From Halobacillus litoralis (lineage in GTDB: Bacteria; Bacillota; Bacilli; Bacillales; Halobacillaceae): a stretch of 64,000 nucleotides of DNA. The position numbers and the translations under genes are program-made. The notes beneath the pieces were generated by a model. It made no database searches. It saw only the letters and a list, made by a program, of their open reading frames with translations, and had not been told where the DNA came from. This document shows, piece after piece, positions 19,506 through 34,562 of this stretch. The stretch lies in assembly GCF_020524085.2 (NCBI RefSeq), contig NZ_CP129016.1:2350001-2414000 (forward strand), read 5' to 3'. How positions within the stretch are numbered: position 1 is the first letter of the stretch; every line of letters begins with the position of its first letter.

Positions 19506-19621
19506 TACTCTTAACCCTTTCGTTTGAAAAGAGGCAAATTTTGCGATCACCTGATTACAATGGCTTTTATCAAGCTAAAATGTTATTATTCTAACGGATA
19601 TTACCTTAAAGGAGAATGAAA

Positions 19622-20000
19622 ATGAAACGACGCACAGCACGTGAAAAAGCTTTCCAGGCGCTTTTTCAAACGATTACGAGTGATATTGAAACCGATGAGG
19701 CCATTGCTCATGTAGTCGAAGGCCAGGAAGTGGACGAGTTTTTATATGACCTCGTACATGGAGTCATGAATAATCGAGAAGAGTTGGATCAATGGATTTC
19801 TGACAATCTCGATCATTGGACGTTTCCACGGGTTAGCCAAAGTTGAGAAGACCGTCCTTCGAATGGCTGCCTATGAAATGAAATACAAAGAAGACGTCCC
19901 TGCACAAGTAGCCATTAATGAGGCGATTGAGCTAGCGAAAATTTTCGGAGAAGATGATTCAGGGAAGTTTGTAAACGGCGTATTATCAAAAATGGTATAA
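19622..20000 (+). CDS. nusB: Transcription antitermination factor NusB, frameshifted
   Basis: NusB binds boxA RNA with NusE (S10) and supports rRNA antitermination. The all-helical protein begins [16 protein letters not shown]. The frame breaks at GGG (19830-19832). Removing one G restores [19 protein letters not shown], followed by [17 protein letters not shown] and the normal end [11 protein letters not shown] chose ATG 19622, because ATG 19616 is too close to the AAAGGAG ribosome site. Reconstructed length is about 125 residues, normal for NusB. Probably a sequencing indel. Confidence 0.9.
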
Positions 20001-20022: not shown

Positions 20023-20874
20023 ATGTCAGCAGAAGTGATCTATGGAAAACAACTGGCAGAAGATCTACGACAAGAAATGAAAGAAGAAGTGAGTGCACTG
20101 CATACAAAAGATATTCGTCCGAAGTTGGTCGTCGTCATATTGGGTGAAGATCCTGCTTCGATGTCTTATGTAAAAGGAAAGCAGCGCGCTTCTGAGAAAA
20201 TCGGTATGGATTCTGATCTCATTGAATTACCTGTAGAAACTTCAGAACAGGAACTGCTGGATTTGATTGACAAACTGAACCAGGATCCTACTGTTCATGG
20301 GATTCTTGTTCAATTACCTGTGCCTGACCATATTTCTGACCAAAAAATCATTGAAGCCATTCATCCAGATAAGGATGTGGATGGTTTTCATCCCGCAAAT
20401 GTCGGCAAGATGATGACCGGCTAGGACACCTTTTTCCCATGTACACCTTATGGAATACTCGTCATGCTTAAACGTGCAGACATTACGCTTGAAGGAAAGC
20501 ATGTGGTGATCATCGGCCGTAGTAACCTTGTAGGAAAACCTGTAGGCCAGTTGCTGCTCAACGAAAATGCAACAGTTACCCATTGTCACTCCCGTACAAA
20601 ACATCTGCAGTCGCATACGAAGCAGGCAGATATTCTTATCGTTGCTGCAGGTAAACCTTCCTTAATTTCGGGTGAAGATATTAAAGAAGGTGCTGTGGTG
20701 ATCGATGTTGGAGTCAACCGTGTGGATGGTAAGCTGACAGGTGATGTGGATTTTGAGTCTGCGAAAGAAGTAGCTTCCCATATCACTCCAGTCCCTAAAG
20801 GTGTAGGTCCAATGACAATCACCATGCTCCTCCATAACACGATTAAAGCGGCAAAGCGAATTCATAATCAGTAA
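20023..20874 (+). CDS. folD: Bifunctional 5,10-methylenetetrahydrofolate dehydrogenase/cyclohydrolase, in-frame TAG
   Basis: FolD interconverts methylene-, methenyl- and formyl-tetrahydrofolate using NADP. Both halves are in one frame: the catalytic domain with [13 protein letters not shown] and VHGILVQLP, and the NADP-binding domain with [12 protein letters not shown] and [11 protein letters not shown]. They are separated only by a TAG codon at 20422-20424, inside [19 protein letters not shown]. Homologues carry Glu or Gln there, so one base change (CAG or GAG to TAG) explains it. No indel is needed, unlike the other broken genes here. Full length would be 283 residues. RBS: AAGGGGGAAATGG. 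Confidence 0.93.
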
Positions 20875-20885
20875 GGAGGATGGGC

Positions 20886-22238
20886 ATGCAGGATCAGTAC
20901 TTGAGCGTTACGGCGTTAACGAAGTACATTAAGCGTAAACTTTCAGGGGATCCGCACTTGAAAACGGTTTGGTTAAGAGGAGAAATTTCGAATTTCAAAC
21001 ACCATAGTCGAGGTCATATGTACCTTTCCTTGAAAGATGACCAAGCCAGAATACAGGCCGTCATGTTTGCCGGGAATAATCGTTCCCTGAAGTTTATGCC
21101 TGAGAATGGAATGAACGTCCTCGTCAAAGGGGAAATCAACGTATACGAACCTATGGGTCAATATCAGCTGTATATTAAAGAGATGCAACCAGATGGAATT
21201 GGAGCTCTTTACTATGCTTTTGAGCAGTTGAAGGAAAAATTAGAAAAAGAGGGCTTATTCTCTCTTGAACGTAAAAAGCCTCTTCCTACATACCCAAAAC
21301 ATATTGGTGTCATCACTTCTCCTACCGGGGCAGCTGTAAGAGATATAATGACAACGATAAAAAGGCGTTACCCTATTGTGCCAGTCACTGTCCTGCCTGT
21401 ACTCGTCCAGGGGGAGCGGGCAGCTTCTTCTGTCGTTAATGCCATCCAATACGCGAACGAAAAAATGGATGTAGATGTGTTAATTGTGGGTAGGGGCGGC
21501 GGTTCTATTGAGGATTTATGGGGATTTAACGAAGAGGTGGTTGCCAGAGCGATTGCAGAATCCGAAATCCCCGTCATCTCAGCCGTTGGTCATGAGACGG
21601 ATACCACCATCAGTGATTTTGTGGCAGATGTAAGAGCAGCGACACCAACGGGAGCTGCTGAAGTCGCTGTACCATCCATTGTAGAGTTGCGTGATCAGGT
21701 TAACGCGTTGGACCACCGCCTTCATAGGGCTATGGAAGTGAAGAAGACAGAGGCGAAGCAGCAATTGGAGCGTTTAAAAAAATCATATGCTTTCAAGTAT
21801 CCTGAACAGATGATGAAGCAAAAAGAGCAGGACTTGGATCGGGTCATGGAACGTATGGCGATACAAATGAAGCACATTCATCAAAAAAGTTTCGTAAATT
21901 GGGGCAACATGGCACGAAGGTTACGACAGCAGGGGCCGGAGTTGAAAATCAGAGAAGGCGCGGAGTCTCTAGAGCGCCAGACGAACCAGCTGCAGAAGCG
22001 GTTTCAGGCTCTTCTCCAGCAAAAGAAAGAACGCTTCTATACAAATGTCGATAAACTGACCTTAGTCAATCCTTTAGACATTATGAAGCGAGGCTTTGCT
22101 GTACCTTTTGATTCTGAGGGAGACGTTATAAAAAGTACTTCTGACATTACAAAAGGCCAATCCCTCTCCTTGAAAATGCAAGACGGAATCGTTGATTGTC
22201 ACGTAACGGATGTAAAGGAGGATGAAAATGACAGATAA
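20886..22238 (+). CDS. xseA: Exodeoxyribonuclease VII large subunit
   Basis: XseA is the catalytic subunit of exonuclease VII, which degrades single-stranded DNA from both ends. The chain of 450 residues has an N-terminal OB-fold (about 1-115, with [11 protein letters not shown]), then the exonuclease domain with [28 protein letters not shown] and [11 protein letters not shown], then a long coiled coil (about 275-400). I chose ATG 20886 because AAGGAGG ends directly before ATG 20880. It overlaps xseB by 11 bases. Confidence 0.95.
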
Positions 22239-22464
22239 GCAGGAAACCATCAGTTTTGAAGAAGCGATGAAGCAGCTCGAAGAGATTGTCGAGAAATTGG
22301 AAACAGGAGAAGTCCCCTTGGAAAAAGCGATCCAGTATTACCAAGAAGGCATGAAACTTTCCAAGCTTTGCAGTGAAAAGCTGGGGAATGTGGAGACTCA
22401 AATGCAGCAAATCATGAATGAACACGGAGAGTTGGAACCGTTCTCTGTCCAGGAGGAAGACTGA
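22228..22464 (+). CDS. xseB: Exodeoxyribonuclease VII small subunit
   Basis: This 78-residue helical subunit binds in several copies to XseA. The block [23 protein letters not shown] is the family signature. The start is ATG 22228, eight or so bases after AAAGGAGG at the end of xseA; ATG 22222 is too close. Three bases separate its stop from ispA. Confidence 0.95.
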
Positions 22465-22467
22465 GCA

Positions 22468-23346
22468 GTGCATTTAGCTGAATATCTTACAGAAAAAAGA
22501 CAACGAATCAATCAGCAGCTTGAAATGCTTGTTCGCGACTATACGGTTTCAGGACGACTTCAAGATTCCATGTTATATTCCATTCATGCTGGGGGTAAAC
22601 GGTTGCGTCCCATTCTATTGATGGCTACTGCTCAAGCTTTTCGAGTTCCTGAAGAGAGAGTGATGGGAGTCGCCTCAGCTCTCGAAATGGTCCATACTTA
22701 TTCCTTAATCCATGACGATCTCCCTGCTATGGACGATGATGATTTAAGACGAGGGAAACCAACGAATCACAAGCGTTTCGATGAAGCAACCGCCATCCTT
22801 GCAGGCGATGCATTATTGACGCTGAGTTCCCAGGTTATTTCGGAAGATGAAGGATTAAGTGATTCTGACCGCGTCTATTTAGTCCGTGAATTGACCAAAG
22901 CCAGCGGTGCGAGAGGCATGGTCGAAGGCCAGATGCAGGACATGCTGAGTGAAGGAGCTGAAATCTCCTTAGAAGCCCTTGAAAACATTCACAGGAATAA
23001 AACAGGGCAATTGCTGAGGTTCTCTATCCTTGCTGGAGCGTATTTAGGCGGAGCTTCAGAAGAAGTCCTCGAAGAAATGACTGAGATGGCTGAAGCACTT
23101 GGACTTTTATTTCAAATTCAAGATGACATCCTGGACGTCACAGGAGACTCTGAGGTTATCGGTAAGCCAGCCGGAAGTGATGAAGGTAACCATAAAAGTA
23201 CTTACCCGCAGCTTTTAGGACTAGATGGAGCTATAGCGCAAAAAGACAAATACGTTCAAAAGGCTCAACAGGCTCTTAAAAATGCAGGGGTTGAGGGGAC
23301 CACTCTTTCTGAACTTATTCATTACTTGAGCACCCGTGATCATTGA
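22468..23346 (+). CDS. ispA: Geranyl/farnesyl diphosphate synthase
   Basis: This prenyltransferase condenses isopentenyl diphosphate with dimethylallyl and geranyl diphosphate to make farnesyl diphosphate. It has 292 residues. The first aspartate-rich motif is HDDLPAMDDDD near residues 82-92, and the second is QIQDDILDVTGD near 217-228; the GGKRLRP substrate loop is at 42-48. It starts at GTG 22468 after AGGAGG. The OLE RNA gene begins about 50 bases after its stop. Its product pathway is fed by Dxs downstream. Confidence 0.95.
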   Translation: MHLAEYLTEKRQRINQQLEMLVRDYTVSGRLQDSMLYSIHAGGKRLRPILLMATAQAFRVPEERVMGVASALEMVHTYSLIHDDLPAMDDDDLRRGKPTNHKRFDEATAILAGDALLTLSSQVISEDEGLSDSDRVYLVRELTKASGARGMVEGQMQDMLSEGAEISLEALENIHRNKTGQLLRFSILAGAYLGGASEEVLEEMTEMAEALGLLFQIQDDILDVTGDSEVIGKPAGSDEGNHKSTYPQLLGLDGAIAQKDKYVQKAQQALKNAGVEGTTLSELIHYLSTRDH

Positions 23347-23361
23347 GGTAAATGATTTCGA

Positions 23362-23390
23362 TTGAGCCACGTGACAAAATGTGATATATT
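23362..23390 (+). promoter_or_regulatory. Candidate promoter of the OLE RNA
   Basis: TTGAGC (23362-23367) and TATATT (23385-23390) are separated by exactly 17 bases, with an extended TG one base before the -10. Transcription would begin near 23397, exactly at the 5' strand of the terminal helix of the RNA. It lies directly after the ispA stop codon, so the RNA can be made apart from the operon transcript. Confidence 0.7.
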
Positions 23391-23396
23391 ATGATT

Positions 23397-24010
23397 ACAA
23401 AAGGAATGGTGCAGTATTCTAGTCGGCCCTCCGTTCCTGAAGGCGGGCCTAAAAATCCGCCGAAGGGCACATCGATGAAGTTCCTTGTGTTGGCTTGAGG
23501 CGCCCAGCCTTGGGTCGATGCTGGGAGTTAAGGTCGCAGGGCGATCCACAAAGGCATGTGGGCGTTGACCCTGCTTCCGCGGAGGCCCATTATTGTAATG
23601 GTATCTGAGCCAGATACTGTTATGAAATGGGGTATGAACCTGCAGCATATGGAGTAACATCTATATGCGCAGCGTAGCCTGCCTTGAGTGGTTCTTGAGG
23701 GGATTATAGTCAGTGAACATCAAGCAGCTTCAGATGGCCACTGAGGTGCTGATGCAGAAACTATATGAAATCAGAACTGCAAAAGAGGCTAAGGAACGGC
23801 TAAAGGCTGTCGGGGAAATCCCCTAGACTGTTCTATGGACATGATTTAGGAATTATAGTGCGGACTAAGTGGCAATCTAGTCCAGCTGCCGGAGACGGGG
23901 CTGAGTCGAGTTTAAAGGGGAACCGCCAGAATGGTGACATTCGGTACTCGACTGGGAAAACCTACTAGACCTAAGCCGCAATTTTTACTTGAATCATGAC
24001 CATTCCTTTC
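23397..24010 (+). ncRNA. ole: OLE RNA (ornate, large, extremophilic)
   Basis: A stretch of about 610 bases without a coding frame lies between ispA and the gene for the OLE-associated membrane protein. That is the position and size known for OLE RNA in Bacillus halodurans and other extremophilic Firmicutes. Both ends pair over 11 bases (23400-23410 with 23999-24009). Internal helices can be seen at GGCGG/CCGCC (23442-23446 / 23457-23461), GGGG/CCCC (23812-23815 / 23820-23823) and AGTCGAGT/ACTCGACT (23904-23911 / 23946-23953). Two related segments, GGATTATAGT (23701) and GGAATTATAGTG (23849), recur. OLE forms a membrane-bound ribonucleoprotein with OapA and is linked to tolerance of cold, short alcohols and Mg2+ (established knowledge). 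The identification rests on synteny, the partner gene and visible structure; no covariance search was possible. Confidence 0.9.
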
Positions 24011-24051
24011 CTTACATAGGACACATCAATTTAGTGATATAGAGGGTATAT

Positions 24052-24651
24052 ATGGATAACAAATTAAAAAAATCTTTAAAATTCAGTCTGAGTATCGCCG
24101 TTATCACATTCGTGTTAGCGGCTATTTTTTCAGTTATATCTTCTTCCGTTTTAAGTGGAGTCGTATGGATCATCGGCCTCGTCCTTGTATTCATTATCGT
24201 CTTTACGGGTGTCGTATTTGACATGCTGGGTATCGCAGCCACTGCTGCTCAAGAACAGCCTTTCCATGCGATGGCGTCTGAAAAGGTGAACGGAGCAAAA
24301 GAAGCGATTGCCATTGTCAGAAACGCTGATCGATTCGCAAGTTTCTGTAATGACGTTATAGGGGATATATCTGGTATAGTTAGTGGTACGGCGTCTGCAG
24401 TTGTGGTCATCCAACTGGCCAACAACTTCGGCTATAGTGATGGATCAACAGTCCAGATTGTAATATCAGTGATCCTGACAAGTATTGTAGCTGCACTTAC
24501 CGTCGGTGGAAAAGCCCTTGGTAAATTTTTTGCCATCAATAAGTCCACGGACATCATTTTCTTCGCTGCAAAGGTCATTTCATGGTTAGAAAAGCGGCTG
24601 AAAGTAAGAATAGTAACAAGTGCACCGTCGTCCACTAAAAAATCAAGATAA
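24052..24651 (+). CDS. oapA: OLE RNA-associated membrane protein OapA
   Basis: OapA recruits the OLE RNA to the cell membrane. This 199-residue protein has a basic N terminus, about four membrane helices (near 11-32, 36-57, 107-125 and 131-152) and a very basic tail. Between helices 2 and 3 lies FDMLGIAATAAQEQPFHAMA, then KVNGAKEAI and FCNDVIGDISGI; this central block is typical of the OLE-associated protein and resembles the DUF21 region of CorC/CNNM-type Mg2+ transporters (inference). The gene sits 42 bases after the RNA and 18 bases before dxs, as in B. halodurans. RBS: AGAGGGT. Confidence 0.9.
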   Translation: MDNKLKKSLKFSLSIAVITFVLAAIFSVISSSVLSGVVWIIGLVLVFIIVFTGVVFDMLGIAATAAQEQPFHAMASEKVNGAKEAIAIVRNADRFASFCNDVIGDISGIVSGTASAVVVIQLANNFGYSDGSTVQIVISVILTSIVAALTVGGKALGKFFAINKSTDIIFFAAKVISWLEKRLKVRIVTSAPSSTKKSR

Positions 24652-24669: not shown

Positions 24670-26562
24670 ATGGATCTGTGTAAAATTAAAGACCCTTCAA
24701 TTCTAAAGGGTATGAATACAAACCAATTAGAACAACTGGCAGATGAAACGAGGCAGTTCCTCATTGAAAACCTGGCTACGACAGGAGGTCACCTGGGGGC
24801 GAATCTGGGGGTCGTTGAGCTTACCCTCGCTCTTCATAAGGTATATAAAAGCCCGGAAGACCGCTTTCTTTGGGATGTCGGTCATCAATCTTATATCCAT
24901 AAAATACTGACGGGTCGTGGTGGACAATTCGAAACGCTCCGACAATATAAAGGGCTGTGCGGCTTCCCTAAACGTGACGAAAGTGAACATGATGTCTGGG
25001 AGACAGGACACAGTTCCACATCATTATCTGCAGCGATGGGAATGGCCATTGCAAGAGACCTGAATAACGAAAAGCATTCGATTTTACCAATCATAGGTGA
25101 TGGAGCTCTTACAGGGGGAATGGCATTAGAGGCCTTGAACCACATCGGACACGAGAAGAAGAATGTAACCGTTATCCTTAATGACAACGAAATGTCGATC
25201 GCTAAAAATGTCGGGGCTCTTCACGGTGCGCTAGGCAGGATGAGAAGTGCCGGGAAATACCATCGCGTAAAAGATGACCTTGAGTGGGTATTAAAAAAAA
25301 TTCCTGCGGTTGGCGGAAAAATTGCGCAGGCTGCTGAAAGACTAAAGGACAGCATGAAATACTTTGTTGTACCTGGTATGTTCTTTGAAGAACTTGGCTT
25401 TACGTATTATGGTCCAGTAGACGGGCATGATTTCAACGATCTTATCGAGAACTTGAATTATGCTAAAAAGACGGATGGTCCTGTTATTGTCCATGTGATG
25501 ACACAAAAAGGAAAAGGTTATCATCCTGCAGAGACCGACGTGAAAGACAAATGGCATGGTGTGGGACCCTATAAAATTGAGTCGGGTGAGAAAATTAAAC
25601 CCGTGGATGCTCCTCCTGCTTGGAGTTCGGTCATCAGTGAAGCCTTGCGCAAAGAAGCAAAGAAGGATGACCGTATCGTTGCCGTAACACCAGCGATGAT
25701 TCTTGGGTCTAAACTAGAGAAATTTGGGGAAGAGTTTCCGGATCGTCTCTTTGATGTAGGGATCGCTGAACAGCATGCAACCACGATGTCAGCAGGCCTG
25801 GCTACTCAGGGAATGAAACCGTTTTTGGCTATCTATTCTACCTTTTTGCAGAGGGGATATGATCAGGTTGTCCATGATGTGGCAAGGCAGAAATTAAACG
25901 TTATTTTTGGTATCGATCGCGCTGGATTGGTAGGGGCTGATGGCGAGACCCACCAGGGAGTATTCGATATTGCCTTCCTGCGGTCTGTTCCGAACTTTGT
26001 GATTTCCATGCCTAAGGATGAAAATGAAGCGCAACACCTTGTTCATACCGCCACACACTACGATGATGGCCCTTTTGCTATTCGTTATCCAAGAGGTAAT
26101 GCGAAAGGTGTACAAACAGATGAACAGCCTGAAATCATACCGATTGGAAGCTGGGAAGTGTTAAAAGAAGGAACGGATGCCGTCATCCTTACTTTTGGTA
26201 CAACCATTGATATGGCTCTTGAAGCTAGTGAAAAGATGGAAAAGGATGGCCGATCAGTAAAAGTCGTGAATGCTCGTTTCATTAAACCATTAGACGATGC
26301 AATGCTTCATGACATAATGAAAGCGGGTATGCCGATTCTTACTGTAGAAGAAGGCGTTCTACAAGGTGGATTCGGTTCAAGCGTGTTAGAGTTTGCAGAG
26401 GAAAATGAATACTCCTCCCAATGGGTCAAGCGTATGGGGGTACCGGACCGCTTCATTGAACATGGCAGTGTTCATAAGCTTTGGGAAGAAATCGGGTTAA
26501 CAACTGATCACATTGTACAAAATTTGAAACATATGATACCGAATAAACAGCAAAGGGCTTAA
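24670..26562 (+). CDS. dxs: 1-deoxy-D-xylulose-5-phosphate synthase
   Basis: Dxs joins pyruvate and glyceraldehyde 3-phosphate with thiamine diphosphate in the first step of the MEP isoprenoid pathway. The length of 630 residues is normal. Features are [14 protein letters not shown] near 38, the TPP/Mg motif [15 protein letters not shown] near 143, and the transketolase-like Glu in DVGIAEQHA near 368. Its product feeds the IspA reaction upstream in the same gene run. RBS: AAGGGGGTCC. Confidence 0.96.
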
Positions 26563-26566
26563 TGAT

Positions 26567-27392
26567 ATGGGAAGAAAAGTAAGGCTAGATGTTTTATTAG
26601 TAGAAAAAGGGTACGTGGAAACACGTGAAAAGGCGAAGAGAACCATAATGGCAGGGCTTGTTTTTCACAATCAAGTCCGCCTGGATAAGCCTGGTCAAAA
26701 AATAGAGGAAGCAACAGAGCTTACCGTCAAAGGCAAAGCGATTCCTTATGTAAGTAGGGGGGGGCCTGAAATTAGAAAAGGCCTTAAAGGTTTTTGACCT
26801 TTCAGTGAAGGATAAAGTGATGATTGATATCGGTTCGTCAACCGGAGGTTTCACAGATTGCGGTTTGCAAAATGGAGTGAAGCTTAGCTATGCCATCGAT
26901 GTCGGTTATAATCAGTTGGACTGGGGCCTTCGTAATCATGAACAGGTTGTTGTCATGGAGAGGACGAATTTCAGATACGTGACAAAAGATGATTTGAAGG
27001 AAGGACAGCCACAGTTTGCTTCCATTGATGTTTCCTTTATTTCTTTAAGAATCATCCTTCCGGTACTAGCAACGCTTTTGGACAAAGAAGGCGATGTTGT
27101 TGCATTGATTAAACCTCAATTTGAAGCTGGTCGTGAGCAGGTAGGGAAAAAAGGAATTGTCAAAGACCCGTCCATACATAGACAGGTGATTGAAAATATT
27201 CTTGATTTTGCAACTCAACACAGCTATTCTGTACATGGACTCACTTTTTCTCCGATTACAGGTGGAGACGGGAATATCGAATTCCTTGTCCATTTGCGCT
27301 TGAATGAGGTAGGACAAGGCGGAATTTCTGAAGAAATCAATATTGAGGCGGTCGTTGAAGAGGCGCATGAAGCGCACCGCAAAAACGCATAA
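26567..27392 (+). CDS. tlyA: TlyA-family rRNA 2'-O-methyltransferase (YqxC), frameshifted
   Basis: This family has an N-terminal S4 RNA-binding domain (VRLDVLLVEKGYVETREKAKR) and an FtsJ-like methyltransferase domain (DIGSSTGGFTDCGLQNG, KPQFEAGREQVGKKGIV). It methylates ribosomal RNA in species where it was studied. The frame breaks in a run of eight G (26757-26764). With seven G the text reads YVSRGGLKLEKALKVFDL and continues to the stop at 27390-27392, about 274 residues in all. A G8 tract could in principle slip in vivo, but with so many indels nearby a sequencing error is more likely. Confidence 0.9.
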
Positions 27393-27455: not shown

Positions 27456-27906
27456 ATGAACAAAGGACAACGTCATATCAAAATCAGGGAATTGATTACG
27501 AATGACGATATTGAAACCCCAGGATGAGTTAGTCGATCGATTAAAGGGTATGGGCTATAATGTTACTCAAGCTACCGTTTCAAGGGATATCAAAGAATTG
27601 CACCTTGTCAAGGTACCTATGATGGATGGGCGTTATAAGTACAGCCTGCCGGCGGATCAGCGTTTTAATCCTTTTGAAAAGTTAAAACGTTTGATGATGG
27701 ATGCGTTTGTAAGCATCGATCGCGCTGGTCATTTCATCATATTAAAAACTCTTCCAGGAAACGCGAATGCGGTAGGGGCACTTGTTGATAATTTGGAATG
27801 GGATGAAATTATGGGCACGATTTGTGGAGATGATACATGTCTAATCATCTGTCGCAGTGCAGAACAAACAGAAACGATAAGTGAGCAGCTGCTCAATATG
27901 TTATAA
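27456..27906 (+). CDS. ahrC: Arginine repressor ArgR/AhrC, frameshifted
   Basis: This hexameric regulator represses arginine synthesis and activates catabolism when it binds arginine. The N-terminal winged helix starts [14 protein letters not shown] at ATG 27456, eleven bases after the start of GGAGGA. The frame breaks at CCCC (27517-27520); with three C the text reads [34 protein letters not shown], the family's DNA-binding block. The C-terminal oligomerisation domain holds [22 protein letters not shown] and the arginine-contact GDDTCL. The reconstruction gives 149 residues, as in B. subtilis AhrC. Confidence 0.93.
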
Positions 27907-29695: not shown

Positions 29696-29881
29696 CTATC
29701 CTGTATTCTCTGCAAAATTTGATTCTATATTCCAATCTTTACATATACGTTGGAGAATGTTTCTACACAAGGGAAAGGGTACTATAATTACTGTGATTAT
29801 GCTCGTTTAAAAATGCTTGTGGAAGACCACATTATAAGTAAGCCATTTAGTTGGTACTGGAGTGATAAGGAGTGTGAACCC

Positions 29882-31131
29882 GTGAAAGATCAACAGACAT
29901 TTAAATATATATGTGGTTCCGTTCTCCTGCTGTTCATGCTCATTTTACCTTTGATAGCCCCTGTTCATGATTATCTGTCCATCCCTACCGATGTAAAAAT
30001 CAGTGCATCCAATGATTCGGAATCCTTTTCTGAATTAGAAGATACAGAAGCGTTAACTGCATTTTCATCCACGGATGACCACCAAGTCTTTTATGAGTTC
30101 GCTGGAGTCCCGCTTAAGAAAACAGATGTAACTCAAATGCGTGACATTCGTTTGATTCCTGGCGGTCAGTCCGTCGGGGTTGAATTGCATACAAAAGGAG
30201 TACTGGTGGTCGGTCACCATTTAGTCCATGGAGAAAGGGAGACGAAGAAATCACCAGGTGAGGAAGCGAATGTCCTCGTTGGTGACATTCTCCTTGAAGG
30301 GAACGGCCAAGAACTCAATAGTATGGAAGAACTGTCAACCATCGTTAAAGAGTCCGGCGAAGCGGAGAAACCCATTGAACTTAAAATCAAGCGAGGAAAA
30401 GAGATGATCTCCACCTCTTTAACCCCTGTCTTTAACGCCCAGGAGAAGGAATATCAAATAGGTCTCTACATCCGTGATTCAGCTGCGGGTATCGGGACAA
30501 TGACGTTTTATGATCCAGAGACGAAGAAATATGGAGCACTTGGACATGTGATTTCCGATATGGATACGAAGAAACCAATTGAAATCCATGAAGGAACGAT
30601 TGTTCGTTCCCACGTAACCTCTATTGAAAGGAAGCCAGGGAATTCCTGGTGAGAAAAAAGCGAAATTTTCATTACGCGATGATCGCTTAGGAACAATTAC
30701 AAAAAAACACACCATTCGGCATCTTCGGAGAATTAGACGGAGACATGAAGAATGATACGTATCCTAAAGGTGTCCCTGTTGGATTTGCAGAAGAAGTTGA
30801 AGAAGGACCTGCGCAAATTATGACTGTCTTAGATGGTGAGGAAATGCAGACCTTTGATGTGGAAATCGTCAGTAACATGCCGAAAAAATCGGCGGTTACA
30901 AAAGGAATGATTGTTAAAATTACAGACCCTGAACTTCTTGATAAAACAGGTGGTATTGTTCAGGGAATGAGTGGAAGCCCGATTATTCAAAATGGAAAAA
31001 TCATTGGTGCAGTCACTCATGTGTTCGTCAATGACCCGACAAGTGGCTATGGTGTACACATTGAATGGATGCTACAAGAAGCCGGAATAGAATTATACGA
31101 AGATAATATCAATAAGCAGAAAGCAAGTTAG
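29882..31131 (+). CDS. spoIVB: SpoIVB serine peptidase (S55), two frameshifts
   Basis: SpoIVB is secreted from the forespore and triggers processing of pro-sigma-K by cleaving SpoIVFA. It has an N-terminal membrane anchor ([19 protein letters not shown]), a PDZ domain (about 105-190) and the S55 peptidase domain, with catalytic His in YGALGHVI and Ser in VQGMSGSP. I chose GTG 29882 because AAGGAG lies ten bases before it. Two insertions break the frame. Removing an A at 30641-30642 restores [20 protein letters not shown]. Removing an A from A7 (30701-30707) restores [16 protein letters not shown]. It lies between recN and spo0A as in B. subtilis. Confidence 0.93.
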
Positions 31132-34072: not shown

Positions 34073-34562
34073 GCCAGGATTGTGGAAGACTTAATTTCGA
34101 GGCTTTTGTTGAGTGGTTAGGGCTACGGGGGATGACTCGCTTTCCGCGTTGCCCCACACGAGGTGGGGGCGTTCGATGTTGGCGCAGGACGTGCCGAACT
34201 TAATCGAACTTCCTCTATTCTTTTGAGCCTCCTCAGAGGACTGAAGATTAATACTCCCATACCCAGGTATTTGAACCCTGAAAGCTTGATACAGAGCGTT
34301 TTATGCTTGTAACAATCGGGGTAGCGGAAGACAACTCATCTTGGTAAAGGGGTTCGTTTCTCACCGATATTGAATGGGGGATTGGGAAGCTGCGAGACTC
34401 CCGTGGGAGAAAGGAGATAGGCGAGATCCCGCAGGGCTTTAGTCCGAGGAATCTCGCCACTCCCCCACAGGAAAGCGAGTTGCTTCCCAGCCACCCCTGA
34501 CGATCAACCAGGCAACGAACCCCGGGATCATCTGGAAACTGAGTCTTCAATAATCAGGAGTT
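34073..34562. repeat. Intergenic TIR repeat, long copy
   Basis: The inverted ends are AAGACTTAATTTCGAGG (34086-34102) and TCTGGAAACTGAGTCTT (34531-34547). Outside are GCCAGGATTGTGG on the left (B end) and CAATAATCAGGAGTTTA on the right (A end, inverted). The right half holds the module GTTCGTTTCTCACC ... GGGAAGCTGCGAGACTCCC ... GGAAAGCGAGTTGCTTCCC ... GGCAACGAACCCCGG, which can fold as a long hairpin. It fills nearly all of the 567 bases between the aspartokinase and exonuclease genes. No coding frame is supported. Confidence 0.82.

Follow-up and report, generated by a model that had tools for sequence, protein, structure and literature searches.

A full-length OLE RNA gene and its partner oapA between ispA and dxs in Halobacillus litoralis

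OLE is described as an abundant RNA of about 630 nt that forms part of a membrane-bound particle (PMC9723947, PMC12265935). Contacts that join two OLE RNAs into a dimer have been reported from cryo-EM (PMC12286853). Helices P3 and P3.1 are given in PMC12265935 as typically 12 bp together, and a published proposal has the P3/P3.1 helix crossing the membrane. In the OLE-associated membrane protein, OapA, mutation of D100/D104 is reported to be worse than deletion (PMC9723947). Halalkalibacterium halodurans is stated in PMC11332333 to lack mpfA, and an anticorrelation between OLE and MpfA has been published. The genes ole and oapA are often directly adjoined by dxs, according to PMC10898510.

The sequence considered here, the window, is a stretch of 64,000 nt from Halobacillus litoralis (contig NZ_CP129016.1, positions 2,350,001 to 2,414,000, forward strand). 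Its open frames, together with Pfam and NCBIfam models for the neighbouring genes, give the gene order xseB-ispA-OLE-oapA-dxs (Table 1), which we take to be the order of the Bacillus halodurans locus. The locus almost certainly comprises an intact OLE RNA gene of full length, accompanied by oapA, its constant partner. Within the ispA-dxs gene row, the predicted RNA has its own conserved promoter, an OLE fold closed by its own ends, and loops of the dimer type.

Table 1. Features of the ole-oapA locus and its flanking genes, in window coordinates
Feature	Position	Strand	Basis
xseB, exodeoxyribonuclease VII small subunit	22222..22464	+	Pfam/NCBIfam models
ispA, farnesyl diphosphate synthase	22468..23346	+	Pfam/NCBIfam models
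OLE promoter: -35 TTGAGC (23362-23367), 17-base spacer, extended -10 TATATT (23385-23390)	23362..23390	+	scan, conserved position
OLE RNA, end helix to end helix, 610 nt	23400..24009	+	RF01071 match, sequence, covariation
End helix P1, 5' strand, AAAGGAATGGT	23400..23410	+	covariation; absent from Rfam structure line
P3.1 (23425-23428) and P3 (23431-23438), 5' strand	23425..23438	+	alignment helices, covariation
P4 A-rich loop, CCTAAAAA, dimer contact in published structure	23448..23455	+	conserved in 108 rows
P9 palindromic loop TGGCCA, dimer kissing loop in published structure	23735..23740	+	alignment
P3 (23792-23799) and P3.1 (23805-23808), 3' strand	23792..23808	+	alignment helices, covariation
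P12.2/P13-type hairpin region, published OapB binding place (putative placement)	23904..23953	+	alignment helices
End helix P1, 3' strand, ACCATTCCTTT	23999..24009	+	covariation
oapA, OLE-associated membrane protein, 199 aa	24052..24651	+	intact open frame; OapA alignment match
dxs	24670..26562	+	Pfam/NCBIfam models

Identity and integrity of the OLE copy

The OLE covariance model RF01071 (gathering score 50) matches the window at 23390-24019 on the plus strand with 508.1 bits and an E value of 4.1e-146. The match takes in model positions 1-616 of 616, where a sequence-only reading of the same DNA had proposed a nearly full-length match as its check. This is the single OLE match in the genome, and the same search finds OLE in none of 14 control genomes. 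That reading had also described a non-coding stretch of about 610 bases with paired ends of 11 bp, lying between ispA and dxs and followed by a gene for the OLE-associated membrane protein. All of this is borne out: the stretch is 610 nt long and its two ends pair over 11 bp, family models confirm xseB, ispA and dxs around it, and the gene that follows is oapA.

The window copy matches RF01071 over its whole length, shares the helices, loops and gene neighbour of the OLE RNAs, and has no essential difference from them; the P7, P8 and P9 regions vary among members in both sequence and length. It belongs to a known family as an ordinary full-length copy, and the locus itself is unsurprising and represents no new kind of system. 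Shortened OLE RNAs, variants 1 and 2, are described in PMC11332333, and the copy might have been one of these. The match over the full model refutes this reading, and with P7, P8 and P9 regions of 51, 33 and 108 nt and the P13-type loop present, a shortened form is exceedingly improbable.

Several genes near the locus are split or shortened. In nusB (19616-19846) the frame is shortened, argR (27502-27903) lacks the start of its first domain, and folD (20023-20874) and two genes that are presumably tlyA (26567-27392) and spoIVB (29750-31131) each consist of two open frames. These defects look like indel errors of the assembly rather than biology. Since they make regional damage or sequencing error possible, the OLE copy could be real in sequence and still be decayed or unexpressed. 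This is very unlikely, because the copy differs from those of the five nearest relatives by 7-11 substitutions and 0 indels over 610 columns, and a decayed copy is rejected on the lack of indels. The full RF01071 match, the intact oapA and the conserved promoter also speak for an intact gene, and a truly decayed locus, that of genome G081, is different in that it keeps a short relic of oapA and has no OLE match.

Near the OLE locus also lies argR, and PMC12265935 and PMC12054373 mention ArgR as a candidate partner of OLE, on evidence that is unpublished. The sole other Rfam match in the window at gathering thresholds is a Bacillaceae-1 RNA (RF01690) at 34153-34219 on the minus strand, with 63.1 bits.

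Fold, loops and ends of the RNA

The fold is based on an alignment of 108 OLE RNAs, comprising the window, 77 relatives from the same order and 30 rows from elsewhere in the phylum. The 30 rows have the highest scores among the 284 matching genomes, so diversity at the far end is under-sampled. RNAalifold recovers the OLE helices from this alignment, in accord with the several internal helices claimed from sequence; the RNAalifold helices are predicted on the same alignment that gave their counts. Helix names were assigned by fit to the published text description.

For the covariation test, pairs were fixed from the window and counted solely in the other 107 rows, with 500 shuffles of the partners. 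Of the 1174 cells of P1 (11 bp), 91.1% pair, against 74.9% on average and 77.1% at most after shuffling, and 231 cells are changed on both sides, compared with a shuffled mean of 86. Pairing reaches 94.2% of 848 cells in P3 (shuffled mean 75.8%, maximum 78.2%) and 97.9% of 423 cells in P3.1 (shuffled mean 74.3%, maximum 78.5%). When the partners are slid by 1-3 columns, only 21-66% of the cells in these three helices are paired. P1 and P3/P3.1, which are missing from the structure line of the Rfam match, are well supported. The pairs of P2 are almost invariant, so this helix provides little covariation evidence.

The loops are highly conserved. The P4 loop is CCTAAAAA in 100 of the 108 OLE RNAs and GCTAAAAA in 8 of 108. 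All 108 have GCCCA or GCCCC in the P5.1 loop and a P6.1 loop ending in GGCA. The aligned P9 loop region contains GGCC in 103/108 and AGCT in 2/108, while 3/108 have neither of these nor GATC; one of these three rows, L011, has another self-complementary stretch. Judged by their sequences, the P4, P5.1/P6.1 and P9 loops agree with the cryo-EM dimer of PMC12286853. The P13-type loop is GGTGAC, GGCGAC, GGCAAC or GGTAAC in all 108 RNAs, and the joining stretches at the putative OapC kink-turn site near P5 are strongly conserved.

The typical 12 bp of the published P3/P3.1 helix is matched by the 8 + 4 bp of the window. The 5' strand of this helix is 14 nt long in 78/78 order-level rows and 14 or 15 nt long in 30/30 phylum-level rows, and its sequence is free although its length is nearly fixed. 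The 3' strand varies from 15 to 20 nt in order-level rows and from 14 to 17 nt in phylum-level rows, and the P7, P8 and P9 regions range widely (27-55, 25-47 and 82-110 nt, respectively). The constancy of the 5' strand suits the published idea that the helix crosses the membrane. Length varies no more in a 10-bp control helix near the 3' end (23840-23849/23989-23998), whose sequence is likewise free, so the constancy of P3/P3.1 is no proof of membrane crossing.

The RNA has a promoter-like sequence of its own, as the sequence-only reading had claimed, with TG preceding the -10 box. By composition alone, promoter-like sites are common, with 5 in the scanned stretch compared with 4.0 expected, yet the position of this one is kept in relatives, and a chance promoter is rejected. 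The best site in the 67 upstream bases scores at least 9 in 77/77 testable order-level loci, a number that includes the window and leaves out L003 of the 78 order-level loci for having too little upstream sequence. The mean score in the 77 loci is 10.3, compared with 7.4 after shuffling, and a score of at least 9 is found in 8 of 231 control windows placed 250-480 bases upstream and taken as ispA coding sequence. One bonus point is given for TG before the -10 box, alike in loci, shuffles and controls.

The commonest spacing, found in 45/77 loci, puts the end of the -10 box 21 bases before the CAGTAT motif. Based on this spacing, the RNA is likely to start at the start of P1. At the other end, a simple scan of the OLE-oapA interval in the window finds no terminator-like site, which suggests that the 3' end probably arises by processing; 3'-end processing of OLE is reported for H. 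halodurans (PMC9723947, PMC11332333). The lack of a terminator-like site between OLE and oapA would also fit a stretch that is mainly a long structured leader, regulating oapA and dxs in cis without forming a separate RNA, and so would the fact that in 107/107 relatives it closely precedes an oapA match on the same strand. A leader of this kind is very improbable, given the end-to-end helix, the promoter belonging to the stretch itself and the published description of the family as an abundant RNA of about 630 nt in a membrane-bound particle (PMC9723947, PMC12265935). The preferred reading remains a separate OLE RNA.

OapA, its partners and the distribution of the pair

In the window, oapA starts 32 nt past the end of the Rfam OLE match. 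In the 107 relatives with OLE, an oapA match is always found just downstream, about 10-121 nt after the end of the OLE match, these distances being extrapolated from partial matches. An ispA match on the same strand is present upstream of OLE in 96/107 relatives, with 2 of the 11 misses at contig starts, and a same-strand dxs match lies within the fetched stretch in 99/107.

At E 0.001, Pfam and NCBIfam models leave OapA of the window without a match; what identifies the protein is its position, the conserved pair of acidic residues and its occurrence together with OLE. The OapA alignment A1, which includes the window protein, finds it as the sole match in its own genome (E 1.1e-90). The protein fits the description of OapA as a membrane protein of about 21 kDa that carries a conserved acidic pair and is found with OLE. 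D101 and D105 are invariant in all 106 complete frames from the 108 loci, L084 and L085 being left out because the fetched stretch holds no complete oapA frame; by their spacing, four apart, these residues fit D100/D104 of H. halodurans OapA. A simple hydropathy scan marks residues of about 7-67 and 130-157 as hydrophobic and, more weakly, those near 103-127; the first of these stretches is long enough for two of the four transmembrane helices expected of OapA. The 17 named loci matched by OapA are all from Halobacillus, H. aidingensis at 100% identity, in a search that reaches close relatives only.

OapA, OapB, OapC and bS21 of the H. halodurans OLE ribonucleoprotein are all encoded in the genome of the window. 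OapB (the L036 protein) matches the solved structure 7k9b, OLE-associated protein B, with an E value of 6e-32, and it also matches the KOW model; its gene sits just upstream of infA. OapC/YbxF is a protein of 83 residues, its start chosen by us, that matches 3v7e (E 9.4e-22) and 4lck, which is YbxF (E 1.2e-21). The genome contains one other L7Ae-family match, L033, which is the weaker of the two. The OapC/YbxF gene lies between rpoC and rpsL, as judged by eye. bS21 is found with an E value of 2.4e-18.

OLE occurs in 78 of the 101 relatives. Within the genus, with the genome of the window counted, 21 of 22 genomes have it, and a phylum-wide sample gives 284 of 398. Since the family is already so widely recorded, the earlier statement that a further intact example is useful is fair, and the gain is modest. 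No paper naming both 'OLE RNA' and Halobacillus was found in the open-licence literature, supplements apart, and the available text of PMC12054373 mentions neither ispA, dxs, the P1 stem nor Halobacillus. A published GTDB-wide scan for OLE probably covers these species already.

An OapA match occurs in 79 of the 101 genomes, comprising all 78 with OLE and G081. In 8 of the 78 matches in OLE-positive genomes, one stop is counted inside the matched stretch, probably because the match extends past the end of the gene. Neither OLE without OapA nor an intact OapA without OLE was seen in the 101 genomes. The match in G081 is the only one among the 23 OLE-negative genomes, and it is weak, covering 40 positions with three stops. 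This relic of oapA (L132, 2651-2740) sits in the ispA-dxs gap of a genome that lacks OLE. It is direct evidence that the locus was lost from its ancestral position, and G081 is the one OLE-negative genome in which a relic points to loss of ole-oapA rather than original absence.

The region around dxs was looked at in 6 of the 23 OLE-negative genomes. Five of the six keep the order xseB-ispA-dxs, with ispA-dxs gaps of roughly 100 to 540 bases that have no Rfam match at E values up to 1. G021, the genome of the same genus without OLE, gives no credible dxs match, the best reaching 61.8 bits, so the absence of OLE there looks like an assembly gap; it was kept in the OLE-negative counts. G046 is without the ole-oapA pair and G092, of the same genus, has it. 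This contrast and the shared distribution indicate that ole and oapA are present or absent as a pair, in agreement with PMC11332333. In G075 (L133, about 1495-1930), a second, diverged oapA-like gene is present in two overlapping pieces, and this genome has a single OLE match.

OLE and the MpfA-type exporters

The genome of the window encodes two complete CNNM-CBS-CorC_HlyC proteins of the MpfA type, L034 and L035, whereas H. halodurans is published as being without mpfA. Each of the 101 genomes, all 78 OLE carriers included, has at least one CNNM and at least one CorC_HlyC domain; these counts are of single domains, the full CNNM-CBS-CorC_HlyC build having been checked for L034 and L035 only. 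The mean number of CNNM domains per genome is 2.59 in OLE-positive genomes (n=78) and 2.74 in OLE-negative genomes (n=23), with P 0.51. For CorC_HlyC domains the means are 2.03 in carriers and 2.65 in non-carriers, with P 0.003 uncorrected for kinship. Outside the family to which the genome of the window belongs, exactly one CorC_HlyC domain is found in 14/35 OLE carriers, compared with 0/22 non-carriers. None of the 78 carriers lacks MpfA-type domains, so this sample shows the published anticorrelation only weakly. The trend runs in the published direction, and coexistence is the rule among the 101 genomes.

A kinship between OapA and CNNM has already been suggested in print. The OapA alignment matches a CNNM protein of G044 with an E value of 5.6e-6, overlapping the PF01595 match, in one of the 101 genomes only, though all 101 have a CNNM domain. 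Against L034, the OapA profile gives an alignment that runs along the CNNM domain, with an E value of 0.002 and a probability of only 14%. Together these matches are a weak sign of kinship. OapA differs from MpfA/CNNM-type Mg2+ exporters, to whose CNNM domain it may be weakly homologous, in having no CBS or CorC_HlyC match and in working, as published, with an RNA. With two complete MpfA-type proteins in the genome, OapA cannot be the only candidate exporter.

By analogy with what has been published for OLE in Clostridium and Halalkalibacterium halodurans, the OLE RNA of H. litoralis would be cut from a longer transcript at its 3' end and would dimerise through its P4, P5.1/P6.1 and P9 loops, and OapA would anchor it to the membrane. 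Together with OapB and OapC, this particle would adjust growth to cold, alcohol, Mg2+ and carbon stress, as published work suggests. As the likeliest further step, the RNA may gate or sense through OapA, a putative distant relative of the CNNM membrane domain of MpfA-type Mg2+ exporters, and such gating would couple the flow of divalent cations to the state of stress. This gating or sensing step is tentative and rather doubtful. Less likely again is a broader picture in which the 12 bp of P3/P3.1 would act as a physical ruler, as if spanning the membrane, and OLE-OapA would work beside MpfA-type exporters in this order without replacing them, for example as a sensor beside the main pumps.

The locus adds an intact example of OLE in which OapA, OapB, OapC and bS21 are accompanied by two MpfA-type transporters. 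The source organism, judged by its relatives, is a culturable moderate halophile. The presence of OLE and two MpfA-type transporters in one genome would permit a direct test of the overlap between OLE-OapA and MpfA.
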